Positions 1,500-11,256 of a stretch of DNA of 64,000 bases are shown one piece after another; the first letter of the stretch is position 1, and every line of letters begins with the position of its first letter. The notes beneath the pieces are model-generated. The model was not told where the DNA came from and ran no database searches. It worked only from the letters and a program-made list of their open reading frames with translations. Source of the DNA: Cytophagales bacterium (lineage in GTDB: Bacteria; Bacteroidota; Bacteroidia; Cytophagales; Cyclobacteriaceae); the NCBI GenBank assembly GCA_017303795.1, contig JAFLBR010000012.1, forward strand, positions 90,265 through 154,264. The letters run 5' to 3'. The translations under genes were made by a program, and so were the position numbers.

Positions 1500-3074
1500 A
1501 TGCGTCAATTATTTTTCCTCAGTCTGGTTTGCATCACACTGGTAGCACAGGCACAAATCGCGAAAGCACCCGAAGTAAAAGAAGGCGAAGGGCCCTACAC
1601 CCAACTCATCATTCGCGGAGTTATCTTAATAAATGGTACCGGTGCACCACCCATTGGGCCGGTTGATATTGTGGTGAAACAAAATCGCATTGTAAACATT
1701 GCCAACGTTGGTTATCCCGGTGTGCCGATTAATGAAGCCCGCAGACCAAAACTGGAAGCGGGTGGTAAAGAGTTGGATTGCAGCGGCATGTACCTGATGC
1801 CCGGCTTTGTAGATATGCATGGCCACATTGGTGGTAGCCAGGCTCCGTTTGCCGAATATGTTTTTAAACTCTGGATGGCACACGGTATTACTACTATTCG
1901 CGAACCTTCTTCCGGTAACGGATTGGATTGGGTGCTTGAACATAAAACCAAAAGTGCGCAGAATAAGATAACGGCACCTCGCATTTATGCTTACACGGCC
2001 TTTGGTATGGGCGCGAAAGAACCCATTGTTACGGCCGATCAGGCGCGCGCGTGGGTTGTTGAAAACAAAAACAAAGGTGCTGATGGGATAAAATTTTTTG
2101 GCGCTGCACCCGAAGTAATGGAGGCAGCTCTTAAAAAGAATAAAGAACTTGGTTTACGTTCGGCCACACACCACGCACAAATGAGTGTGGCGCAATGGAA
2201 TGTTTTACACTCGGCCCGTGCCGGACTTACCAGCATGGAGCATTGGTATGGTTTACCCGAAGCGTTGTTCACCAACCAAACCATACAAAACTTTTCACTC
2301 GATTATAATTATCAAAATGAAATGGATCGCTTTGGCGATGCCGGAACATTATGGAAACAAGCAGCACCACCACATTCCGATCATTGGAACAAAGTGATGA
2401 ATGAATTGCTGGCGCTGAATTTTACGTTAGATCCAACTTTTAATATTTACGAAGCCAACCGCGACTTGCATCGCGCGCGCAGGGCCGAGTGGCATGAAGA
2501 TTATACGTTACCAACGTTGTGGGCTTTCTATCAGCCCAGCAAAATTTCGCATGGCTCGTACTGGCATGCGTGGGGTACGGAGCAGGAAATTCAATGGCGT
2601 GAAAATTATAGATTGTGGATGGCTTTTGTAAACGAATATAAAAACCGGGGCGGTCGCGTAACCACAGGTTCTGATTCGGGTTTCATTTTTCAATTGTATG
2701 GTTTTGCGTACATCCGCGAACTGGAGTTGTTGCGCGAAGCAGGCTTTCATCCATTGGAAGTTATTCGTTCGGCAACACTTTATGGGGCGCAGGCATTGGG
2801 TGCCGATAAAGATCTGGGCTCGGTTGAAATTGGTAAGCTGGCCGACTTTGTAATTGTAACAGAAAATCCTTTGCCCAATTTGCAAACCCTTTACGGAACC
2901 GGTGCGATAAAACTAACCGATGATAATAAAGTAGTTCGCGCAGGCGGAGTAAAATATACCGTGAAGGATGGTATAGTTTACGATGCAAAGAAACTATTAG
3001 CCGATGTAAAGAAGCTGGTAGAAGAAGAAAAACGTAAAGCTGGATTTACGTTGAAACAACCGGGTAACGAATAA
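1500..3074 (+). CDS. Secreted amidohydrolase family protein
   Basis: A 524-residue metal-dependent amidohydrolase with a signal peptide (hydrophobic core, then AQAQ). The mature part starts with the beta-sandwich typical of the imidazolonepropionase/dihydroorotase-like superfamily. Metal ligands are visible: HGH near residues 107-109, a candidate carbamylated Lys in GIKFFG, then His in THHAQ and MEHWYG, and Asp in TTGSDSG. The C-terminal LADFVIVTENPL segment closes the small domain. These hydrolases act on cyclic amides or dipeptides in the periplasm; the substrate cannot be read here. The TPR lipoprotein starts 12 bases downstream, so the two are probably cotranscribed. Confidence 0.9.
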   Translation: MRQLFFLSLVCITLVAQAQIAKAPEVKEGEGPYTQLIIRGVILINGTGAPPIGPVDIVVKQNRIVNIANVGYPGVPINEARRPKLEAGGKELDCSGMYLMPGFVDMHGHIGGSQAPFAEYVFKLWMAHGITTIREPSSGNGLDWVLEHKTKSAQNKITAPRIYAYTAFGMGAKEPIVTADQARAWVVENKNKGADGIKFFGAAPEVMEAALKKNKELGLRSATHHAQMSVAQWNVLHSARAGLTSMEHWYGLPEALFTNQTIQNFSLDYNYQNEMDRFGDAGTLWKQAAPPHSDHWNKVMNELLALNFTLDPTFNIYEANRDLHRARRAEWHEDYTLPTLWAFYQPSKISHGSYWHAWGTEQEIQWRENYRLWMAFVNEYKNRGGRVTTGSDSGFIFQLYGFAYIRELELLREAGFHPLEVIRSATLYGAQALGADKDLGSVEIGKLADFVIVTENPLPNLQTLYGTGAIKLTDDNKVVRAGGVKYTVKDGIVYDAKKLLADVKKLVEEEKRKAGFTLKQPGNE

Positions 3075-3086
3075 ATTTACATAATC

Positions 3087-4022
3087 ATGAAACGTTTTAT
3101 TTTATTCATTGCATTGGCTTTGGTGGCGTTTGCCTGCAAAGAAAATAATCCTGAACAAGCTGCGGCCGAAGCGGCTGAAGTGTATTCGTTATTGGGTTTG
3201 GAATATTATGCTCCAACCGAACCCAATCCAAAAGCAGATAGCAACCTGGCAGTAGCGCAGAAAAATTTTGATGCCGATGCTTCCGAAGAGAATTACATCT
3301 GGTTGGGGCGTAGGCTGGCGTATAAAGTAAAATACAATCAGGCCATTGATGTGTTTACCGAAGGCATTGAACAATATCCTAACTCTTACAAACTCTATCG
3401 CCATCGCGGGCACCGCTATATTTCGCAACGCAAATTAGATGCCGCCATTGCCGACTTTACCAAAGCGGCTGAGTTAATGCCAGCAACACCATTAGAAATT
3501 GAGCCCGATGGCATACCTAACAAAATCAACAAGCCGTTATCTACTACACAATTTAATGTGTGGTATCATTTAGGTTTGGCGCATTACCTGAAAGGTGAAT
3601 TTGACAAAGCCGAACAAGCTTACTTAAAATGTATGGAGGTAAGCGATAATGATGATCTGATTACGGCCACGGTAGATTGGTTGTACATGACTTACCGCAG
3701 TCAAGGCAAAACAGATGAAGCAAAACTGTTGTTGGAAAAAATTACTCCTAACATGACAATTGTTGAAAATGATTCTTACTTCAAGCGACTCAATCTCTAT
3801 AAAGGCAGCCTTCCCGTTGATTCGGTGCTGAACGTAAGCAGCACTTCAACCGATGCCGACCTGGCCATTGCCACGCAAGGTTATGGCGTGGGCAACTGGC
3901 ATTTGTACCATGGCGATACTGTGCAGGCTATTGCTGTTTTCGAGCGTGTGATAGGCGGAAAACACTTTTCTGCTTTTGGATTTATTGCAGCCGAAGCTGA
4001 CCTGGCGCGGATAAGAGAATAA
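3087..4022 (+). CDS. TPR-repeat lipoprotein
   Basis: A 311-residue protein with a lipoprotein signal (hydrophobic stretch ending VAFAC, acylated Cys about residue 17). Several TPR units follow: YNQAIDVFTEGIEQYPNSYKLY, LDAAIADFTKAAELMP and GEFDKAEQAYLKCMEV, then a last helical pair near the C-terminus (DTVQAIAVFERVI). TPR lipoproteins of Bacteroidota act as periplasmic scaffolds. Its position 12 bases after the amidohydrolase suggests a shared transcript, but no specific partner can be named. Confidence 0.85.
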   Translation: MKRFILFIALALVAFACKENNPEQAAAEAAEVYSLLGLEYYAPTEPNPKADSNLAVAQKNFDADASEENYIWLGRRLAYKVKYNQAIDVFTEGIEQYPNSYKLYRHRGHRYISQRKLDAAIADFTKAAELMPATPLEIEPDGIPNKINKPLSTTQFNVWYHLGLAHYLKGEFDKAEQAYLKCMEVSDNDDLITATVDWLYMTYRSQGKTDEAKLLLEKITPNMTIVENDSYFKRLNLYKGSLPVDSVLNVSSTSTDADLAIATQGYGVGNWHLYHGDTVQAIAVFERVIGGKHFSAFGFIAAEADLARIRE

Positions 4023-4023
4023 A

Positions 4024-4053
4024 TTGCACTGGCTTTATTTTCTCTTAAATTTG
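4024..4053 (+). promoter_or_regulatory. Bacteroidota-type promoter of tRNA-Arg
   Basis: A TTG at 4024-4026 is separated by 19 bases from a perfect TAnnTTTG element (TAAATTTG, 4046-4053). This matches the -33/-7 consensus of the Bacteroidota primary sigma factor. Transcription would start near 4060, about 30 bases before the tRNA. Confidence 0.6.
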
Positions 4054-4089
4054 CGGCCTGTTTGTGAGACTTTAATGCCTCAAAAAACT

Positions 4090-4161
4090 GGTCCCGTAGT
4101 TCAATGGATAGAATAGGAGTTTCCTAAACTTTTGATGCAGGTTCGATTCCTGTCGGGACTA
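4090..4161 (+). tRNA. tRNA-Arg (anticodon CCT)
   Basis: A complete 72-base cloverleaf. The acceptor stem is GGTCCCG/CGGGACT (one G-T pair), the D arm is GTTC/GAAT, the anticodon stem is GGAGT/ACTTT around loop TTCCTAA (anticodon CCT, decodes AGG), and the T arm is GCAGG/CCTGT with loop TTCGATT. The discriminator is A and CCA is not encoded. It sits directly before the AAA-ATPase/DUF4276 pair, and a diverged copy lies beyond that pair at 6406-6477. Confidence 0.95.
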
Positions 4162-4240
4162 CTAATTGTACCTGATGCACCATTTTACGCAAAGTCATTG
4201 ACTTTCGAGTTAGTTAAGAAATGGATTTAATGTAAAAATA

Positions 4241-5692
4241 ATGATTACACGAATTAAAATTGACGGCTTTAAAAGCTTGCTAAATACAGAATTGTATTTT
4301 GGACCTTTTACTTGCATAGCGGGAGCAAATGCAATTGGGAAGTCCAATTTTTTTGATGCTTTGTCTTTTTTATCAAAACTTGCAGATAATACCATCCTCT
4401 ATGCAGCAAAATCAATAAGAAGCGAAGAGCAGAAGCATTCTGACATTAAAGATATTTTTTTTAAAAGCGGTAAAGAATATTACGAAAAAATGTCTTTTGA
4501 GATTGATATGTTAGTTTCTAAAAAAGCAGAGGATGATTTAGGTCAAGATGCAGAGGCAAGTATCACTAGTCTCAGATATTCGCTTGAACTAAAATTGAAT
4601 CTCGATAACACGGAAGGCCAACCGATACAAATAATTAAAGAAGAGCTCAGGCCGATAACTTTGGGTGAAACAAAGAAAGGAATTCATTTTGAAAGGGACA
4701 AAAATTGGGTAAACTCAGTGGTGTTAGGAAAAAAGACAACTGCCTTTATAACCACATTGTCAGAAAAAATAAAACTTCATCAAGATGGAAATAAGGGCAG
4801 GACAACGGAATTTATTGCTGAAAAAATGCCACGGACACTCTTATCGACCGTTACATCCGAGTCGCCTACGGCTTTTTTGGCCAGACAAGAGATGCGAAAC
4901 TGGATTATGTTGCAGTTTGAACCAAGTGCTTTGAGACAACCAAATAGCACTTACGAAGTTAAGAATGCAGAGATAACGGCTAATGGCAGTAATTTACCAG
5001 CAACATTGTACAGGTTGCATACCGAAAAAAATGAAAACGATGTTTATCAAAAATTAACCAATAAATTAAAGAGTCTTGTTAATGATGTAGATGAAATAAA
5101 TGTTGATAAAGACGAAAAGAGAGATTTGTTAACGCTTCAAATTAAGTTTAAAGACGGTCTTGTTTTGCCTGCTCAATCACTCTCTGATGGCACGCTGAGA
5201 TTTTTGGGATTGGCCATTATTCAGGAAGACAACAAAAGCAGCGGACTTATTTGTTTGGAAGAACCAGAGAATGGCATAAACCCTAAAAAGGTAAATGAAA
5301 TGGTAAACTTGTTAGAGGATATGGCAACTGATACGGCCTATGAAGTGAATGAAGACAATCCTTTAAGGCAAGTTATTATTAATTCTCACTCTCCCTTGGT
5401 CGTTAGAACTGTTTCGGCTGAGAGTTTGTATTTAGCTACAGAACGTGAGGTCTATTCTGATTTTTTTCAGAAAAAAATTAAACACACTAAGTTCTCTGCG
5501 TTGAACAATACTTGGAAAACGGATAATTATCTGATAGATGCCACTACTATCGGGGATATTATCTGTTATTTAGATAATTCTCAAGTCAATATCAATAAAT
5601 CAGTGAACGAGTCGTCAGAAGTATACAAGGCCAAAAGCAAAAAGAAAAGGACGGTTGCAGAAAGTATTAATCAATTAAATCTTCAATTCTAG
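4241..5692 (+). CDS. AAA family ATPase (SMC/OLD-like, AAA_21 type), defence-system candidate
   Basis: A 483-residue ABC/SMC-type ATPase. Walker A is GANAIGKSN (residues 28-36). A long helical/variable insert follows, then an ABC signature-like LSDGTLRFL (from about 314), Walker B ICLEEPENG (Glu about 340-341) and the H-loop INSHSPLVV. This is the layout of the OLD, RloA and AriA-like ATPases (COG4637-type), which usually work with a nuclease partner. The partner here is the DUF4276 gene starting 3 bases after the stop. The gene is more AT-rich than its neighbours and lies between two tRNA-Arg copies, which suggests horizontal acquisition. A role in phage defence is inferred from family and context. 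Confidence 0.88.
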   Translation: MITRIKIDGFKSLLNTELYFGPFTCIAGANAIGKSNFFDALSFLSKLADNTILYAAKSIRSEEQKHSDIKDIFFKSGKEYYEKMSFEIDMLVSKKAEDDLGQDAEASITSLRYSLELKLNLDNTEGQPIQIIKEELRPITLGETKKGIHFERDKNWVNSVVLGKKTTAFITTLSEKIKLHQDGNKGRTTEFIAEKMPRTLLSTVTSESPTAFLARQEMRNWIMLQFEPSALRQPNSTYEVKNAEITANGSNLPATLYRLHTEKNENDVYQKLTNKLKSLVNDVDEINVDKDEKRDLLTLQIKFKDGLVLPAQSLSDGTLRFLGLAIIQEDNKSSGLICLEEPENGINPKKVNEMVNLLEDMATDTAYEVNEDNPLRQVIINSHSPLVVRTVSAESLYLATEREVYSDFFQKKIKHTKFSALNNTWKTDNYLIDATTIGDIICYLDNSQVNINKSVNESSEVYKAKSKKKRTVAESINQLNLQF

Positions 5693-5695
5693 AAA

Positions 5696-6340
5696 ATGCC
5701 TGAATTGAGATTTACATTGATAGCCGATGGTAGTTCAGACAGCACCTTATTGACTGTAATTAAGTGGCTATTAGACGATGTATATCCTACCATCGCAGTT
5801 CAAAGAAGTTTTGCGGATTTTAGACATCTTCCGAAACCACCCCAAGCAGGTGACATCCAAGCACGAATAGATTGTGCTAGTCAATATTATCCATTCGATA
5901 TCCTTATTTATCACCGTGATGCTGAAAGTAGAGATAAGGGAATAGTTCTTCAGCGAAAAAATGAAATTTTAGCCAATCTCGTTGATTCAGAAATTGTTGT
6001 GTGTGTTATTCCTGTTGAAATGATGGAGGCATGGCTTTTAATTAGTGGAGAGGCTATAAAAAAAGCGGCTGGAAATCGAGGCTACAATAAGGATATGAAA
6101 CTTCCGGCAATACAAGCAATAGAGGCCGTATCTAACCCCAAAGATCTTCTTCACCAAATATTGAAACAAGTAAGTGGATTGAAGGGTAGGAGACTAAATA
6201 GTTTCAATGTGCATCAAGCTGTTCATTTGGTTGCGGAAAACATTTCAGATTTTTCCTCCTTAAGACAACTAAATTCGTTTCGAGTCTTCGAGAAGGATTT
6301 AAGAGAAGCTGTTGATAAGATAGTGGCAAATGGCAATTAG
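5696..6340 (+). CDS. DUF4276 family protein (TOPRIM-like), partner of the AAA ATPase
   Basis: A 214-residue protein placed 3 bases after the ATPase stop, so almost surely cotranscribed. It shows the DUF4276 pattern: an N-terminal strand ending ADGSSD (residues 10-15), an acidic HRDAE motif (73-77) after a hydrophobic strand, and VEMMEAWLL (about 108-115). DUF4276 proteins are TOPRIM-fold candidates found beside COG4637-type ATPases. The usual Glu of the first TOPRIM motif is replaced by Asp11. A split ATPase plus TOPRIM resembles the architecture of PARIS and OLD systems; nuclease activity here is inference. Confidence 0.82.
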   Translation: MPELRFTLIADGSSDSTLLTVIKWLLDDVYPTIAVQRSFADFRHLPKPPQAGDIQARIDCASQYYPFDILIYHRDAESRDKGIVLQRKNEILANLVDSEIVVCVIPVEMMEAWLLISGEAIKKAAGNRGYNKDMKLPAIQAIEAVSNPKDLLHQILKQVSGLKGRRLNSFNVHQAVHLVAENISDFSSLRQLNSFRVFEKDLREAVDKIVANGN

Positions 6341-6385
6341 ATTAAATCTGCCTGTTGCAAAAATGTATTCAACCCATTCCAATTT

Positions 6386-6393
6386 TACCTTTG
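6386..6393 (+). promoter_or_regulatory. Candidate -7 element upstream of the second tRNA-Arg copy
   Basis: TACCTTTG matches the TAnnTTTG consensus exactly and lies 12 bases before the tRNA-like copy, so this copy may be transcribed. No convincing -33 TTTG is seen at the expected distance. Confidence 0.4.
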
Positions 6394-6405
6394 ACAACTT
6401 TCTTT

Positions 6406-6477
6406 GGTTCCTTAGTTCAATGGATAGAATAGAAGTTTCCTAAACTTTTGATCCCAGTTCGATTTTGGGTGAGACTA
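6406..6477 (+). tRNA. Diverged second copy of tRNA-Arg (CCT), possibly a pseudo-tRNA
   Basis: This 72-base copy is as long as the tRNA at 4090 and is nearly identical in the D and anticodon arms (loop TTCCTAA, same CCT anticodon). The T arm is different but still paired (CCCAG/TTGGG with loop TTCGATT). The acceptor stem GGTTCCT/TGAGACT has two mismatches (positions 5-68 and 7-66), so aminoacylation is doubtful. The repaired T stem argues that it is a tRNA from another lineage rather than random decay. It marks the right boundary of the ATPase/DUF4276 island. Confidence 0.7.
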
Positions 6478-6483
6478 CAAAAT

Positions 6484-7464
6484 TTATCTGCCGGAATAGT
6501 TTCGAAGAATAAATTCAACAATCCACTTTTGAAGGATTGTTTTTTGCTCCGGTGTAGCGAAGGCAAATCCATGATCAGCCCCCTCAACAAAATGAATTTC
6601 GTTTTTCACTTTCAGCGAATCCATTTTAGCCTGTAGTTTAATACTTTGATCAACGGGCACTACCCGATCTTTATCGCCATGAATGATAAGGGTGGGTGGG
6701 GCAGCGCTGGTAAGAAAATTGTAAGGAGAATATGTCTCCATCATTTGCTGCGCACGGACACTATCTTGTTTTGGGTCAAAACCAAAAATGAATTTTGGTA
6801 GATCCAGCCGTCCGCGTAGGCCATTCGGTAACTGCGCCAAGGCTGAATATAATGTATCGATAACGGGAGCCTGATAAATATCTTTTAATCGGGTGGGGCC
6901 GTACACCTCAACCACATACTTAAGTTGAATAGCAGGAAGTTCTTTGGGTTGATTTATGGTGGGTGAATAAGCAACCATCATGGCGATATGAGCACCGGCA
7001 GATTCACCAAAGAGGCCAACATTGTTTAAGTCAAATTTATATTCAGTCGCATGCTCTTGAATCCATTTTAAAGCATCGGTAGCATCGCTAATGCAAGAAG
7101 GGAATGGGCTTTGATTGGACGTTGCCAACGTATAGTTGATGCTGATGATTGCATAACCGGATTTGCGCAGTTGGTTAGCCGCTTCATTGAAGCGATTGAA
7201 GTTTAACCCTTCTTTAATTCCAGTGACCCACGCGCCTCCGTGTATGTAAACAACTACAGGTATTTTATCATAAACATTTTGTGTGGGCAAGTAGATGTCG
7301 AGATCAAGTCCGTCTTTGTATTTGATGTTGCGTATAACCTGCCCGGAAACGATGGGAGCATTATTGGCAATAAGATAGTATGCCAACGCTGAAGCCGAAC
7401 CTGCGATTAGGATCAATAGGTAAATTAAAAATTTCCAACGCTTTTTCAACTTAGGTTGTGCCAT
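6484..7464 (-). CDS. Alpha/beta hydrolase, carboxylesterase-like (BD-FAE/HSL type)
   Basis: A 326-residue membrane-anchored hydrolase with one N-terminal transmembrane helix (about residues 10-30). The oxyanion HGGAW motif is followed by the nucleophile elbow GESAGAH. The Asp lies in the HGDKDRVVPV region and the catalytic His in GADHGFAF. This layout is typical of the alpha/beta hydrolase fold-3 and feruloyl-esterase-like families acting on small esters. It ends 7 bases beyond the second tRNA-Arg copy, so that repeat abuts its 3' end. The substrate is unknown. Confidence 0.87.
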   Translation of the reverse strand: MAQPKLKKRWKFLIYLLILIAGSASALAYYLIANNAPIVSGQVIRNIKYKDGLDLDIYLPTQNVYDKIPVVVYIHGGAWVTGIKEGLNFNRFNEAANQLRKSGYAIISINYTLATSNQSPFPSCISDATDALKWIQEHATEYKFDLNNVGLFGESAGAHIAMMVAYSPTINQPKELPAIQLKYVVEVYGPTRLKDIYQAPVIDTLYSALAQLPNGLRGRLDLPKFIFGFDPKQDSVRAQQMMETYSPYNFLTSAAPPTLIIHGDKDRVVPVDQSIKLQAKMDSLKVKNEIHFVEGADHGFAFATPEQKTILQKWIVEFILRNYSGR

Positions 7465-7563
7465 GTCAAGAGGGAGTTTGTAAAATAGCGATAACTTCTA
7501 TTTTGAATTATTTAACCAGAACGGAATACGTTGCGTTGAAGTTTCTCGATGATTAGTAATAAA

Positions 7564-8133
7564 TCACACCGGAAACACATTCCCTTTAAAAATCTTCACC
7601 GCTATGGCCAGCAGAATTACACCAAAAACCCTGCGCAGTACAGCAAAGCCTGATTTGCCGATTACACGCTCCAGCCAAGAGGAAGATCGCAGCACGAGGT
7701 AAACAAAAAGCAGATTTACAAGAATGCCAATCAACACATTAGTCTCTGCATAAACTGCGCGCAACGAAAGAATGGTAGTTAACGTTCCGGCTCCGGCAAT
7801 TAACGGAAATGCCAATGGCACAACGGAACCCGTACCTTTTGCATCGGGGTCATCTTTAATCAATGTTATTCCCAGAATCATTTCCATGGCTACAATAAAA
7901 ATTACAATCGCTCCGGCCACAGCAAAAGAAGCCACATCCAACCCAAAAAGATTTAGAATAGATTGCCCGAGGTAAAGAAACCCCACCATCAGCGCAGCCG
8001 AAATAAGTGTAGCTTTTTCAGCGTAAATACGCCCCTCTCTTTTTTTGATGAGAATTATAAAAGGCACTGAACCGATAATATCAATTACCGAGAAGAGAAT
8101 TAATGATACCGAAAAAATTTCCTTGAAGTCCAT
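7564..8133 (-). CDS. MarC family membrane protein
   Basis: A MarC/UPF0056 integral membrane protein of about 190 residues with six predicted helices. It shows the family features: an N-terminal SLILFSVIDIIGSVPF, a central FAVAGAIVIFIVAMEMILG and PLAFPLIAGAGTLTTIL. I chose the ATG at 8133 because it gives the usual MarC start (MDFKEIFSVS); a longer frame to 8214 would overlap the divergent gene at 8170. MarC was once linked to multiple antibiotic resistance, but its substrate is unknown. Confidence 0.9.
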   Translation of the reverse strand: MDFKEIFSVSLILFSVIDIIGSVPFIILIKKREGRIYAEKATLISAALMVGFLYLGQSILNLFGLDVASFAVAGAIVIFIVAMEMILGITLIKDDPDAKGTGSVVPLAFPLIAGAGTLTTILSLRAVYAETNVLIGILVNLLFVYLVLRSSSWLERVIGKSGFAVLRRVFGVILLAIAVKIFKGNVFPV

Positions 8134-8169
8134 AAATAGAAATGCGATGCAAAGGTAGCAGAAAATTGA

Positions 8170-8721
8170 ATGGGCGGTTGGCTTATTGCTTATCTTTCCA
8201 AAGTGAAAAGGCAAAACCTATTTTGGTTAGTTACCGCAGCAACCATTGGCTGGATGTTGGTTATGCGCCCGGTTACGCCAACCAATATCATCGAGTTTGA
8301 GTTTGCACGCACGCCCGAGAAAGCTGTAAAAATTTTTATAGACTGGGGTGGAAGCGGAGTAGAGAAAGCAAAAATGAGTATTCTGCTTGATTTCGTTTTT
8401 CTGGTTCTTTACAGTTGGGCCATAAGCCTGGGATGTAAAGTAGCAGCAGGTTTTTCTAATACTTCAATCATTTCAAAAATCGGGTTACGGCTTTCGCGGA
8501 TTATCTGGATGGCAGGTGCCTGCGACATGATAGAAAATGTTTCGCTTCTGTTGGTGATGCGTAACCTGAACGCCATGCTTCTTGAACTTGCTTTTTGGAC
8601 AGATGGTATCAAGTTCACAATAGTAATAATAGCCTTACTTTTTATAATAGTTGCTTTTGGTATTGGCTTGACGCAGAAACTACTTCATTCGAACGAAAAG
8701 AATGACTCAACCTTTTCGTAA
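8170..8721 (+). CDS. Hypothetical four-helix membrane protein
   Basis: A 183-residue protein with about four hydrophobic segments and a polar C-terminal tail. I do not recognise the family. The central ACDMIENVSLLLVM segment carries charged residues within a hydrophobic stretch. A GTG at 8203 (followed by KRQNLFWLV) is an alternative start that would leave more room for promoters toward marC, which diverges 36 bases away. The 3' end overlaps the convergent aminotransferase gene by 15 bases. Confidence 0.65.
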   Translation: MGGWLIAYLSKVKRQNLFWLVTAATIGWMLVMRPVTPTNIIEFEFARTPEKAVKIFIDWGGSGVEKAKMSILLDFVFLVLYSWAISLGCKVAAGFSNTSIISKIGLRLSRIIWMAGACDMIENVSLLLVMRNLNAMLLELAFWTDGIKFTIVIIALLFIIVAFGIGLTQKLLHSNEKNDSTFS

Positions 8722-9747
8722 AACATTCATCAACCTTTTACTGTCTGATGGTTTTATAGCCGGAAAATTGGCAATCCGGAAAGTAATTGGCTTCAACTTA
8801 CCATAACCTTCTCCTAACAAAAAACCAGCTTTGAGCACTCGTGATTTTGTAGCCTTGATTTGTGACTGAGTGCCAGTAACAGCAATTACCGTATCCGATC
8901 GGACAGCAATATTATTTATTAAAGGTTTGATGGTTTTTGTTTCCAGAAGTTTGTACCATTCTTTAGCCTGCTGTTTTAATCTTTTATGAATGACGAGAAT
9001 GAAAGGTGAGTTTTGAAGTACCCGATACAATAAATATATACCCAATACATTTGGTGTGTGCGTGGTCTGAAATTTTTCAGCAAACTGTAGTTGATGCACC
9101 AGACTATTGTAATGCGAACGTTCATTGAGTTGTTGCGCTTTGGTAACTGCACGAGGCGAACAAATCAATACAGCAAGTCCGGCAGGCAAGCCAAAACATT
9201 TTTGTGCAGAAGCAAACCAAATATCACCCACTGAAAAATCCAATGCTTGTCCACCCATTGACGATGTGGCATCAATAGCAATTAGCTTAGCTGGATTTTT
9301 TTTACGCACTTCACGTAAGATTTTATTGCTTACCTGCGTGCCATTACTGGTTTCGTTTTGTGTAATGCAGATTACATCGCCAGCATAAACGGCAACGGGT
9401 AATTCTTGTTGCGGATCGAATCTTATACTTGCGGCACCCGGGTTTAATGCTAGTGTGTAGGTAAACCATTTTTTACCGAATGCACCATTATATATGTGTG
9501 TACTGGTTTGCTTGATCAGCGATTGCGCAATTACTTCCCAGCATTCTGTAGCAGACGACAAGAACAAAACTGTGTACGATTTTGGAGTGCGAAGTTTCTT
9601 CTTTAGTTCATTGGAAGTTTTCTTCACTAAATCCAAGCATGCTGCACTGCGGTGATTCATACTCAGTACACCCAGCCGTTGTGCATCCTTCACATACGAA
9701 GGTATTTTGTTATGGACTTGCGAAGGGCCTGGGTAGAAGGAAATCAT
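8707..9747 (-). CDS. Class V aminotransferase (SerC/AGXT-like)
   Basis: A 346-residue PLP enzyme of aminotransferase class V. The start FYPGPSQV matches the phosphate-cup region of SerC and alanine-glyoxylate transaminase-like proteins. IAIDATSSMGG carries the Asp that contacts the PLP ring, and the Schiff-base Lys is in SAQKCFGLPAG (Lys about 183). A serine- or alanine-related transamination is likely. It could be the phosphoserine aminotransferase of this organism, but serA is not beside it, so no gene symbol is given. Confidence 0.82.
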   Translation of the reverse strand: MISFYPGPSQVHNKIPSYVKDAQRLGVLSMNHRSAACLDLVKKTSNELKKKLRTPKSYTVLFLSSATECWEVIAQSLIKQTSTHIYNGAFGKKWFTYTLALNPGAASIRFDPQQELPVAVYAGDVICITQNETSNGTQVSNKILREVRKKNPAKLIAIDATSSMGGQALDFSVGDIWFASAQKCFGLPAGLAVLICSPRAVTKAQQLNERSHYNSLVHQLQFAEKFQTTHTPNVLGIYLLYRVLQNSPFILVIHKRLKQQAKEWYKLLETKTIKPLINNIAVRSDTVIAVTGTQSQIKATKSRVLKAGFLLGEGYGKLKPITFRIANFPAIKPSDSKRLMNVLRKG

Positions 9748-9759
9748 TCTCTAGTTCGT

Positions 9760-10248
9760 TTATCGGGTAAGCTCACGTAGAATTCTGCTGAAATAATGTT
9801 GTAAATCCAGTTCGCTTTCCTGAATAGAGATGAATCTTACAATCATCAAACCAATTTGAATTAGAATATAGATTACTGCTGTAGCAATTGACGGTGATAA
9901 AAGAATAATCGGAATAAATACAAGAGTAAAAATAATAGCAATTAACCAAGTAAAGAATTTCAAACCACCTGTATCAGGAAAATAGTTGACAATTATTTTA
10001 GTTTGATTGCCGTTGTCATGAAGTTCTGCTTTAATTATGCCTGTAGACTGAAACTTCCTTGCTAAAATATTGTAGTTTCGTTTAACCAGTAACAATTTTT
10101 CATTTACAGAAATACTGGCCAGCTCAAGATATTTTGGATCCATTTTTTCCCATAAATCGGGCTTGTGATCCTTTACTTTATCTTGAATTTTAAGAATAAA
10201 TTCTTCCAATGGTAGGGAAACAAAATAAGTTTTTTTTTGGATACTCAT
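9760..10248 (-). CDS. Hypothetical protein with two C-terminal membrane helices
   Basis: About 162 residues from the ATG at 10248 (MSIQKKTYFVSLPLEEF). A polar N-terminal domain of about 95 residues precedes two close hydrophobic segments and a short charged tail. The frame is open further upstream, but that part would lie antisense to the dienelactone hydrolase, so I reject the longer start. The stop lies 13 bases downstream of the aminotransferase start, so both may be read together. I do not recognise the family. Confidence 0.6.
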   Translation of the reverse strand: MSIQKKTYFVSLPLEEFILKIQDKVKDHKPDLWEKMDPKYLELASISVNEKLLLVKRNYNILARKFQSTGIIKAELHDNGNQTKIIVNYFPDTGGLKFFTWLIAIIFTLVFIPIILLSPSIATAVIYILIQIGLMIVRFISIQESELDLQHYFSRILRELTR

Positions 10249-10371
10249 CTCTGGGAAGCTCTTATCAAAACTTTTCTTTAACACGATTAAAGATGCAAAA
10301 AACTTGTCAATACGAACCTGTGATTTATGGTAAATTATTCTGTACATTTCCTCAACCGAAAAACAACTGCC

Positions 10372-11256
10372 ATGAAACCACTTCAAAAGGAAGACATCAA
10401 ACAAGAAGTTTTTGATCTGTATGACGATTATGCCCATAACCGGATTGACCGGAGAACGTTTCTGGAAAAACTTTCGATGTATGCAGTGGGTGGTGTAACC
10501 GTAGCTGCGTTGCTCAGTTTTATCAGCCCCGATTATCAGATCATTCAGGTGCAAGCCAACGATCCACGCCTAAAGTCCGACTATATAAATTACGATTCGC
10601 CCAAAGGCGGAGGTTCCATAAAGGGTTTACTTTCCAAACCGGCCGATGCAAAAGGAAAACTACCGGGTGTGGTGGTGGTGCATGAAAATCGTGGTCTGAA
10701 TCCATACATTGAAGATGTTGGCAGAAGAGCCGCGCTTGCTGGTTTTATTTCATTAGCACCCGATGCGCTAACTCCATTAGGTGGTTATCCCGGTAATGAT
10801 GATGAAGGTCGAACGTTGCAAAGCAAACGCGATCGGAATGAAATGCTGGAAGATTTTATTGCGGCCTTTTATCATTTAAAGTCTCATCCCGATTGTAACG
10901 GAAAAGTAGGTGTAGTAGGTTTTTGTTTCGGTGGTTGGATTTCGAATATGATGGCGGTACGCGTACCAGAGTTGGCGGCAGCGGTTCCGTTTTATGGTGG
11001 TCAGGCACCGGCAGCTGATGTTCCAAAAATCAATGCTCCTTTATTGTTGCACTTTGCCAGCTTGGATACCCGTGTAAACGAAGGCTGGCCTGCTTACGAG
11101 CAAGCATTAAAAGAAAACAATAAAAAATATATCGCTCACATGTATCCCGATGTTAATCATGGGTTTCATAATGATAGCACACCACGTTTCGATAAACCCG
11201 CTGCTGAGTTAGCGTGGCAACGCACGGTAGATTTCTTTAAAGAAAACCTGAAGTAA
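10372..11256 (+). CDS. Dienelactone hydrolase family protein with Tat-like signal
   Basis: A 294-residue protein. The first about 65 residues hold a twin-arginine-like DRRTFLEKL followed by a hydrophobic stretch, suggesting Tat export. The hydrolase domain shows [17 protein letters not shown] (oxyanion loop with Glu), the nucleophile elbow GFCFGGW with Cys, an Asp in [10 protein letters not shown] and His in VNHGFHND, which is the Cys-Asp-His triad of dienelactone hydrolases (carboxymethylenebutenolidase type). I chose the ATG at 10372 because residues upstream do not look like family sequence. The role of the exported form is unknown. Confidence 0.88.

Follow-up and report, generated by a model that had tools for sequence, protein, structure and literature searches.

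In the window, by which we mean the whole 64,000-base stretch of contig JAFLBR010000012.1 that was analysed, an island of two genes, coding for an ATPase and a DUF4276 protein, lies between two full-length genes for tRNA-Arg(CCT) that carry different alleles. Such a full-length, two-allele duplication of a tRNA at an island is unusual, and we put it at about an even chance that a HEC-01-type pair entered here via recombination within the body of the tRNA gene, which is a target of repeated insertion in the genus ("genus", "family" and "order" being kinship labels assigned by the search tool).

Both tRNA-Arg(CCT) genes, the intact copy 1 (4090..4161, + strand) and the diverged copy 2 (6406..6477, + strand), were called by ARAGORN and by covariance scoring with Rfam RF00005, confirming the pair of full-length tRNA genes around a two-gene island that had been described in an earlier note made from the letters of the sequence. 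Against RF00005, copy 1 scored 63.0 bits and copy 2 scored 44.3 bits; of the 34 tRNA matches that the window's genome gives, none scores lower than copy 2. Of 73 positions compared, 12 differ between the copies: the T arm and 3' acceptor strand account for 9, the 5' acceptor strand for 2 and the anticodon stem for 1. This position-by-position comparison bears out the altered but paired T arm and the two acceptor mismatches previously reported for the second copy, in which the T stem is fully paired and the mismatches fall at 5-68 (C-A) and 7-66 (T-T). Among the genus relatives, 46 of 48 tRNA-Arg(CCT) genes are fully paired and the remaining two have a single mismatch, at 5-68. Copy 1, being fully paired, is probably the working gene, and copy 2, with its mismatched acceptor, is probably a relic or a weak gene.

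The direct repeat (4089-4174 and 6405-6490, 81% identity) comprises the tRNA alone. The further claim that a promoter-like element is repeated along with the tRNA did not hold, as the repeat stops at these limits and flank comparison found the upstream flanks of the two copies to be unrelated. A TAnnTTTG motif, which we take to be a Bacteroidota-like promoter motif, was nonetheless picked up by motif scan upstream of each tRNA: TAAATTTG (4046..4053, + strand) starts 44 bases before copy 1 and is likely its native promoter element, lying in a flank that matches the relative G032, and TACCTTTG (6386..6393, + strand) starts 20 bases before copy 2. Across the genus the motif occurs within 60 bases of tRNA-Arg(CCT) at 27 of 49 loci, the window's copy 1 counted. 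As had been noted, no integrase lies between the copies, and the genome's 6 integrase-domain matches are all on other contigs. The window's island resembles an integrase-driven tRNA island in being inserted at a tRNA gene, and in G031, and probably in G020, an island of that kind seems to use this very tRNA. The repeat of an integrase-driven island is the 3' end of the tRNA, whereas here it is a full-length tRNA of another allele with no integrase. A classical attL/attR pair was rejected, given that the repeat spans the whole tRNA and that the element has no integrase.

Between the tRNAs there are two genes only, with 3 bases separating the stop codon of the ATPase from the start codon of the DUF4276 gene. 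The first (4241..5692, + strand, 483 aa) codes for an AAA_15/AAA_21 ATPase by Pfam and matches the PADLOC HEC-01A model PDLC04184 at E 5.4e-97; the second (5696..6340, + strand, 214 aa) matches the HEC-01B model PDLC04210 at E 9e-27, while its Pfam DUF4276 match (E 0.00089) falls below the family cut-off. These are the best-matching models for the two proteins, and gene order and adjacency, ATPase first, are also as in HEC-01. Judged by sequence, the pair is a member of HEC-01, a candidate defence system catalogued in PADLOC, with an SMC/RecF/OLD-like AAA ATPase; it differs in that the HEC-01 relatives examined have no tRNA-Arg repeat whereas the window's pair has one. PARIS likewise joins an AAA ATPase to a small effector, and its AriA model matches the window's ATPase at E 2.1e-27, but HEC-01A scores far above AriA. 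Its effector AriB is, according to PMC12409363, a Toprim tRNase that cleaves tRNA-Lys; no AriB (DUF4435) match for the second protein was present among 12 PADLOC matches, and Pfam gives DUF4276 only. The MAD3 ATPase of MADS is also related to the window's ATPase, at 149.1 bits, which is far below the curated cut-off of 420 bits.

To characterize the DUF4276 protein, we aligned 67 proteins (66 from the loci of 80 relatives passed length and start filters), revealing invariant G12, H73, D75, R87, E111, W113 and K149 in 67/67; all 67 proteins also match PDLC04210. Its AlphaFold model is confident (pLDDT 94.6) and found no significant match in the PDB by Foldseek (1,087 matches at E <=10, none at <=0.001, best E 0.045), so that the predicted fold was not assigned; a sequence profile found no match among solved structures up to E 5. 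By analogy with ATPase-effector pairs such as PARIS, the ATPase would sense a phage trigger and then license the DUF4276 protein as effector, which on the same analogy is probably a nuclease. Literature searches for HEC-01 and DUF4276 gave no report of activity among the matches listed.

We next consider whether this pair is tied to tRNA-Arg elsewhere. When one genome per species was scanned, 327 ATPase relatives came up, of which 80 were kept; a recognisable DUF4276 partner accompanies 77 of these (76 downstream on the same strand, 1 on the opposite strand). No tRNA-Arg lies in the flanks of these 80 (up to 4 kb, several contigs ending sooner), and a search of 160 flanks, each at most 600 bases long, with copy 1, copy 2 and 30 tRNAs of the window's genome gave no tRNA fragment at E 0.01. 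Because the pair is found elsewhere with no tRNA-Arg beside it, the data lend no support to the idea of an ATPase/nuclease system travelling with tRNA-Arg, and we rejected the pair as a tRNA-Arg-linked system. Ten loci from whole-genome searches (one of them, L185, apparently being the contig already represented among the 80 as L250) likewise had no tRNA-Arg repeat. Other tRNAs near relatives were a single tRNA-Ser among the 80, 2.2 kb away, a tRNA-Glu at distances of 2 to 4 kb in three very remote relatives, which are among the most distant, and tRNA-Leu 5 kb from one; a distant relative of the pair in G220 (33%) lies ~150 bases from a single tRNA-Arg(CCG), with no repeat in its 3.5-kb contig. 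Two candidates were set aside: an ARAGORN call of undefined isotype inside one relative's ATPase gene, taken as spurious, and a tRNA-like 15-base match ~150 bases past the pair of G354 (L184), at E 0.043, on the other strand and coding-like. Plasmid and phage searches returned distant ATPase relatives only (3 plasmid records and 1 phage record).

The chromosomal site, in turn, could be followed through the two conserved genes upstream of copy 1, an amidohydrolase gene (1500-3074, + strand) and a TPR-repeat gene (3087-4022, + strand), both named by Pfam and found syntenic by tblastn in 8 genus genomes. Anchoring the search on these genes beside tRNA-Arg(CCT) located the same site in G186, G009, G018, G013, G024, G032, G008 and G030; five genomes with both upstream genes and no adjoining tRNA-Arg(CCT) in the stretch (G027, G020, G183, G034, G181) are not among the 8. 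Neither the ATPase nor the DUF4276 gene is at the site in any of the 8, within the stretch fetched, and each has one full-length tRNA-Arg(CCT), accompanied by fragments in four. The earlier note had considered that relatives without the genes might still keep both tRNAs; instead all 8 carry one full-length copy and none carries two, and we regard the doubling in the window as more than chance. The site itself is variable, with the tRNA inverted in G008, 2.8 kb from the TPR gene in G018, preceded by broken copies in G009 and G186, and followed by remnants in G030 and G032. When 61 other genus genomes were searched for the esterase gene adjoining copy 2, just one had a relative at E 1e-50 (63% identical), for which reason the downstream side of the empty site is not reconstructable. 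Comparison of window positions 6406-11256 with G032 (L103 5233-8587) showed, as a separate observation, that the segment that starts with MarC and runs as far as the gene at 10327-11256, presumably dienelactone-hydrolase-like, lies beside tRNA-Arg(CCT) in G032 in the opposite orientation to that in the window.

The alleles of the two copies point in opposite directions. Using T-arm types A, B and C, labels set in this analysis, bases 48-73 of copy 1 best match type A (25/26; G191, G178, G175, G031, G015, G003), a type that occurs at other loci and at the site in 0 of the 8 relatives, whose alleles are type B or C, with a variant in G030. The same bases of copy 2 best match G195, G186 and G009 (25/26), two of which share the site, giving copy 2 a 3' half of native type behind a mismatched 5' acceptor strand. 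Complete pairing would be possible between this 3' half and the 5' half of 19/48 genus genes, and the 5' half of copy 2 has one mismatch against the 3' half of copy 1 versus two against its own. As for the flanks, the one upstream of copy 1 matches the syntenic flank of G032 (z 15.4; next by score 5.7), and no clear match was found for the flank downstream of copy 1 (z <=2.1) or for those of copy 2 (<=3.4 and <=3.0, the highest among those listed).

The simplest account of these patterns is an exchange within the tRNA gene, through which the pair would have arrived and the alleles would have been swapped. Copy 1 would then consist of the native promoter and native 5' end joined to an incoming 3' part, and copy 2 of an incoming promoter and 5' part joined to the native 3' part. 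A single crossover needs an extra step, because the D loop reads AATGG in both copies and AACGG in the type-B relatives at the site; copy 1 could also be wholly incoming. Some decay of the acceptor in copy 2 is possible, the 5-68 mismatch being present in 2/48 other genes. We found no donor with both a type-A tRNA and HEC-01. As to the choice first posed between a cassette with its own tRNA-Arg and insertion into a tandem pair, the allele pattern fits a tRNA-bearing arrival better, and the part of the cassette idea that did not stand is the tie of the pair to a tRNA elsewhere.

Insertion at this tRNA is recurrent in the genus. We assessed 48 relative loci with tRNA-Arg(CCT), which represent 47 genomes (G006 contributes two; G187, with no CCT tRNA, was dropped; flanks were shorter than 1 kb at G006, G006b, G025, G178 and G184), and tRNA-Arg fragments lay within 1 kb at 17/48 (E 0.05), against 1/56 control flanks around 28 other tRNAs of the window's genome, that one being a neighbouring tRNA gene. 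A small GIY-YIG gene together with broken tRNA copies stands beside 7/48, a frequency that applies to these loci only, and all four of these hotspot genes that were checked against Pfam match PF01541.

Individual loci illustrate the variety of these structures. In G016 (L121 8097-8839), two broken and one intact tRNA-Arg(CCT) form a tandem array in which the copies are spaced 335 bases apart and each is preceded by a GIY-YIG match, the first only partial; G186 (L158 7870-8560) has four ~146-base units at tRNA-Arg(CCT) with no GIY-YIG match; and G195 (L319 1087-1838, reverse strand) has two GIY-YIG units downstream of an intact tRNA-Arg(CCT). G031 (L177, L178, L180) has an integrase-domain match 0.7 kb past tRNA-Arg(CCT) and 17- and 16-base repeats of the 3' end of that tRNA ~32 and ~68 kb downstream, possibly reflecting nested or tandem islands. 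Lastly, in G019 and G182 an older tRNA-Arg(CCT) is interrupted by a tRNA-Arg(CCT) allele that has inverted repeats on either side; such an allele also stands free in G024 and G013 (L124 ~2858-3044, reverse strand; L230; L094 8440-8540; L118 7960-8050), and it looks like a mobile tRNA unit.

Three other histories were weighed against recombination in the tRNA body. The pair may have inserted between tandem tRNA-Arg(CCT) genes that already existed through an old duplication, the second of which is now decaying. This is simple, it accounts for a copy 2 that keeps a promoter-like motif of its own and most of its structure, and the genus often has broken copies in tandem; we nevertheless think it unlikely, given the absence of two full-length copies at the site in all 8 relatives and the clustering of differences in the T arm and acceptor, which fit two allele families and not scattered decay. 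The doubled tRNA could alternatively be the product of a tRNA-targeting GIY-YIG unit, with the pair later replacing or joining the GIY-YIG gene. Such units do occur at the 7/48 loci above and, in the window's own genome, at tRNA-Leu and tRNA-Met, but a search of the window's first 14 kb with one query found no GIY-YIG gene, and the Pfam model gave no match on its contig at E 1e-6. Neither copy has any of the four searched 6-base palindrome cores within 600 bases, and the stretches 3900-4260 and 6300-6700 showed no inverted repeat. Copy 2 is moreover full length, which most broken copies are not, and we judge this origin improbable.

Under the third history, the second tRNA would be functional cargo, the effector cleaving tRNA-Arg and the altered tRNA protecting the host or acting as a sensor. 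Defence by tRNA cleavage has precedents in PARIS (PMC12409363) and in Septu, a defence system that cleaves tRNA according to PMC13096335, and the G220 relative does lie close to a tRNA-Arg. Against this, tRNA-Arg is missing from the flanks of all 80 relatives, as are tRNA fragments from all 160 flanks, and G220 has one tRNA and no repeat, leaving cargo very improbable.

Returning to recombination at a recurrent insertion site, one could extend it to a broader reading in which small mobile units of the genus re-supply the tRNA that they break, insertion swaps the allele, and the window's unit carries defence cargo; we offer this only tentatively and consider it rather unlikely as a whole. Some such units would carry a GIY-YIG endonuclease and others look like a tRNA framed by inverted repeats. 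The site matters more than the pair, as it presents one tRNA gene, several alleles, and repeated break-and-restore insertions, both with and without integrases, in a single genus.

Small GIY-YIG genes beside tRNAs extend well beyond tRNA-Arg(CCT). In the window's genome, 5/6 GIY-YIG matches (a UvrC-sized one aside) are within 140 bases of a tRNA; counts outside this genome refer to fetched loci only. Across 8 genus genomes, chosen partly for having such units (27 small and 3 large loci of 68 places), a tRNA lies in the 1.5-kb flanks of 21/27 small GIY-YIG loci versus 0/3 large-protein loci. A further partial copy of the adjoining tRNA was detected at 18/21 of these small loci at E 0.001 and at 20/21 at E 0.05; several of the 21 overlap, and together they amount to ~16 distinct sites, of which 13 hold such a copy at E 0.001. 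Among 25 control tRNA loci of the window's genome with no GIY-YIG match, partial copies numbered 1 (E 0.001) and 4 (E 0.05), one of the 4 being L032, which has a GIY-YIG gene missed by the single query. In a sample from the order (20 small and 9 large loci; L318, already counted, was left out), a tRNA accompanied 7/20 small loci, with a partial copy in 6 (E 0.005), and 0/9 UvrC-sized loci.

At several loci the small GIY-YIG gene has an intact tRNA on one side and a broken version of it on the other, and the broken version often contains a perfect palindrome (window's genome, L318 1418-1793 and L343 1340-1838; relatives, L095, L109, L114, L121 and L234), and many broken copies are at or near a perfect palindrome. 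Partial copies beside GIY-YIG genes were seen for tRNA-Arg, Leu, Met, Val, Asn, His and Ser, and in other families for tRNA-Asp, Pro, Glu and Lys. These genes resemble SegB, which PMC13096335 describes as a phage homing endonuclease that amplifies tRNA segments; SegB is phage-borne, however, and the window's island has no GIY-YIG gene. No chromosomal counterpart of SegB appeared among the top literature matches listed, a search with most subscription journals outside its scope. GIY-YIG genes beside broken copies at many tRNAs may be more novel than the window's island, and the breaking and restoring of tRNA genes in this genus is worth separate study. If endonuclease units cause it, essential RNA genes in the chromosomes of bacteria would be homing targets, as phage tRNA segments are, and defence genes could accumulate at such sites. 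At one locus of the window's genome (L005 1182-1575), tRNA-Val has beside it a partial copy that covers its positions 15-76, together with a weak GIY-YIG trace at E 0.003, and the locus is perhaps a decayed unit of this kind.
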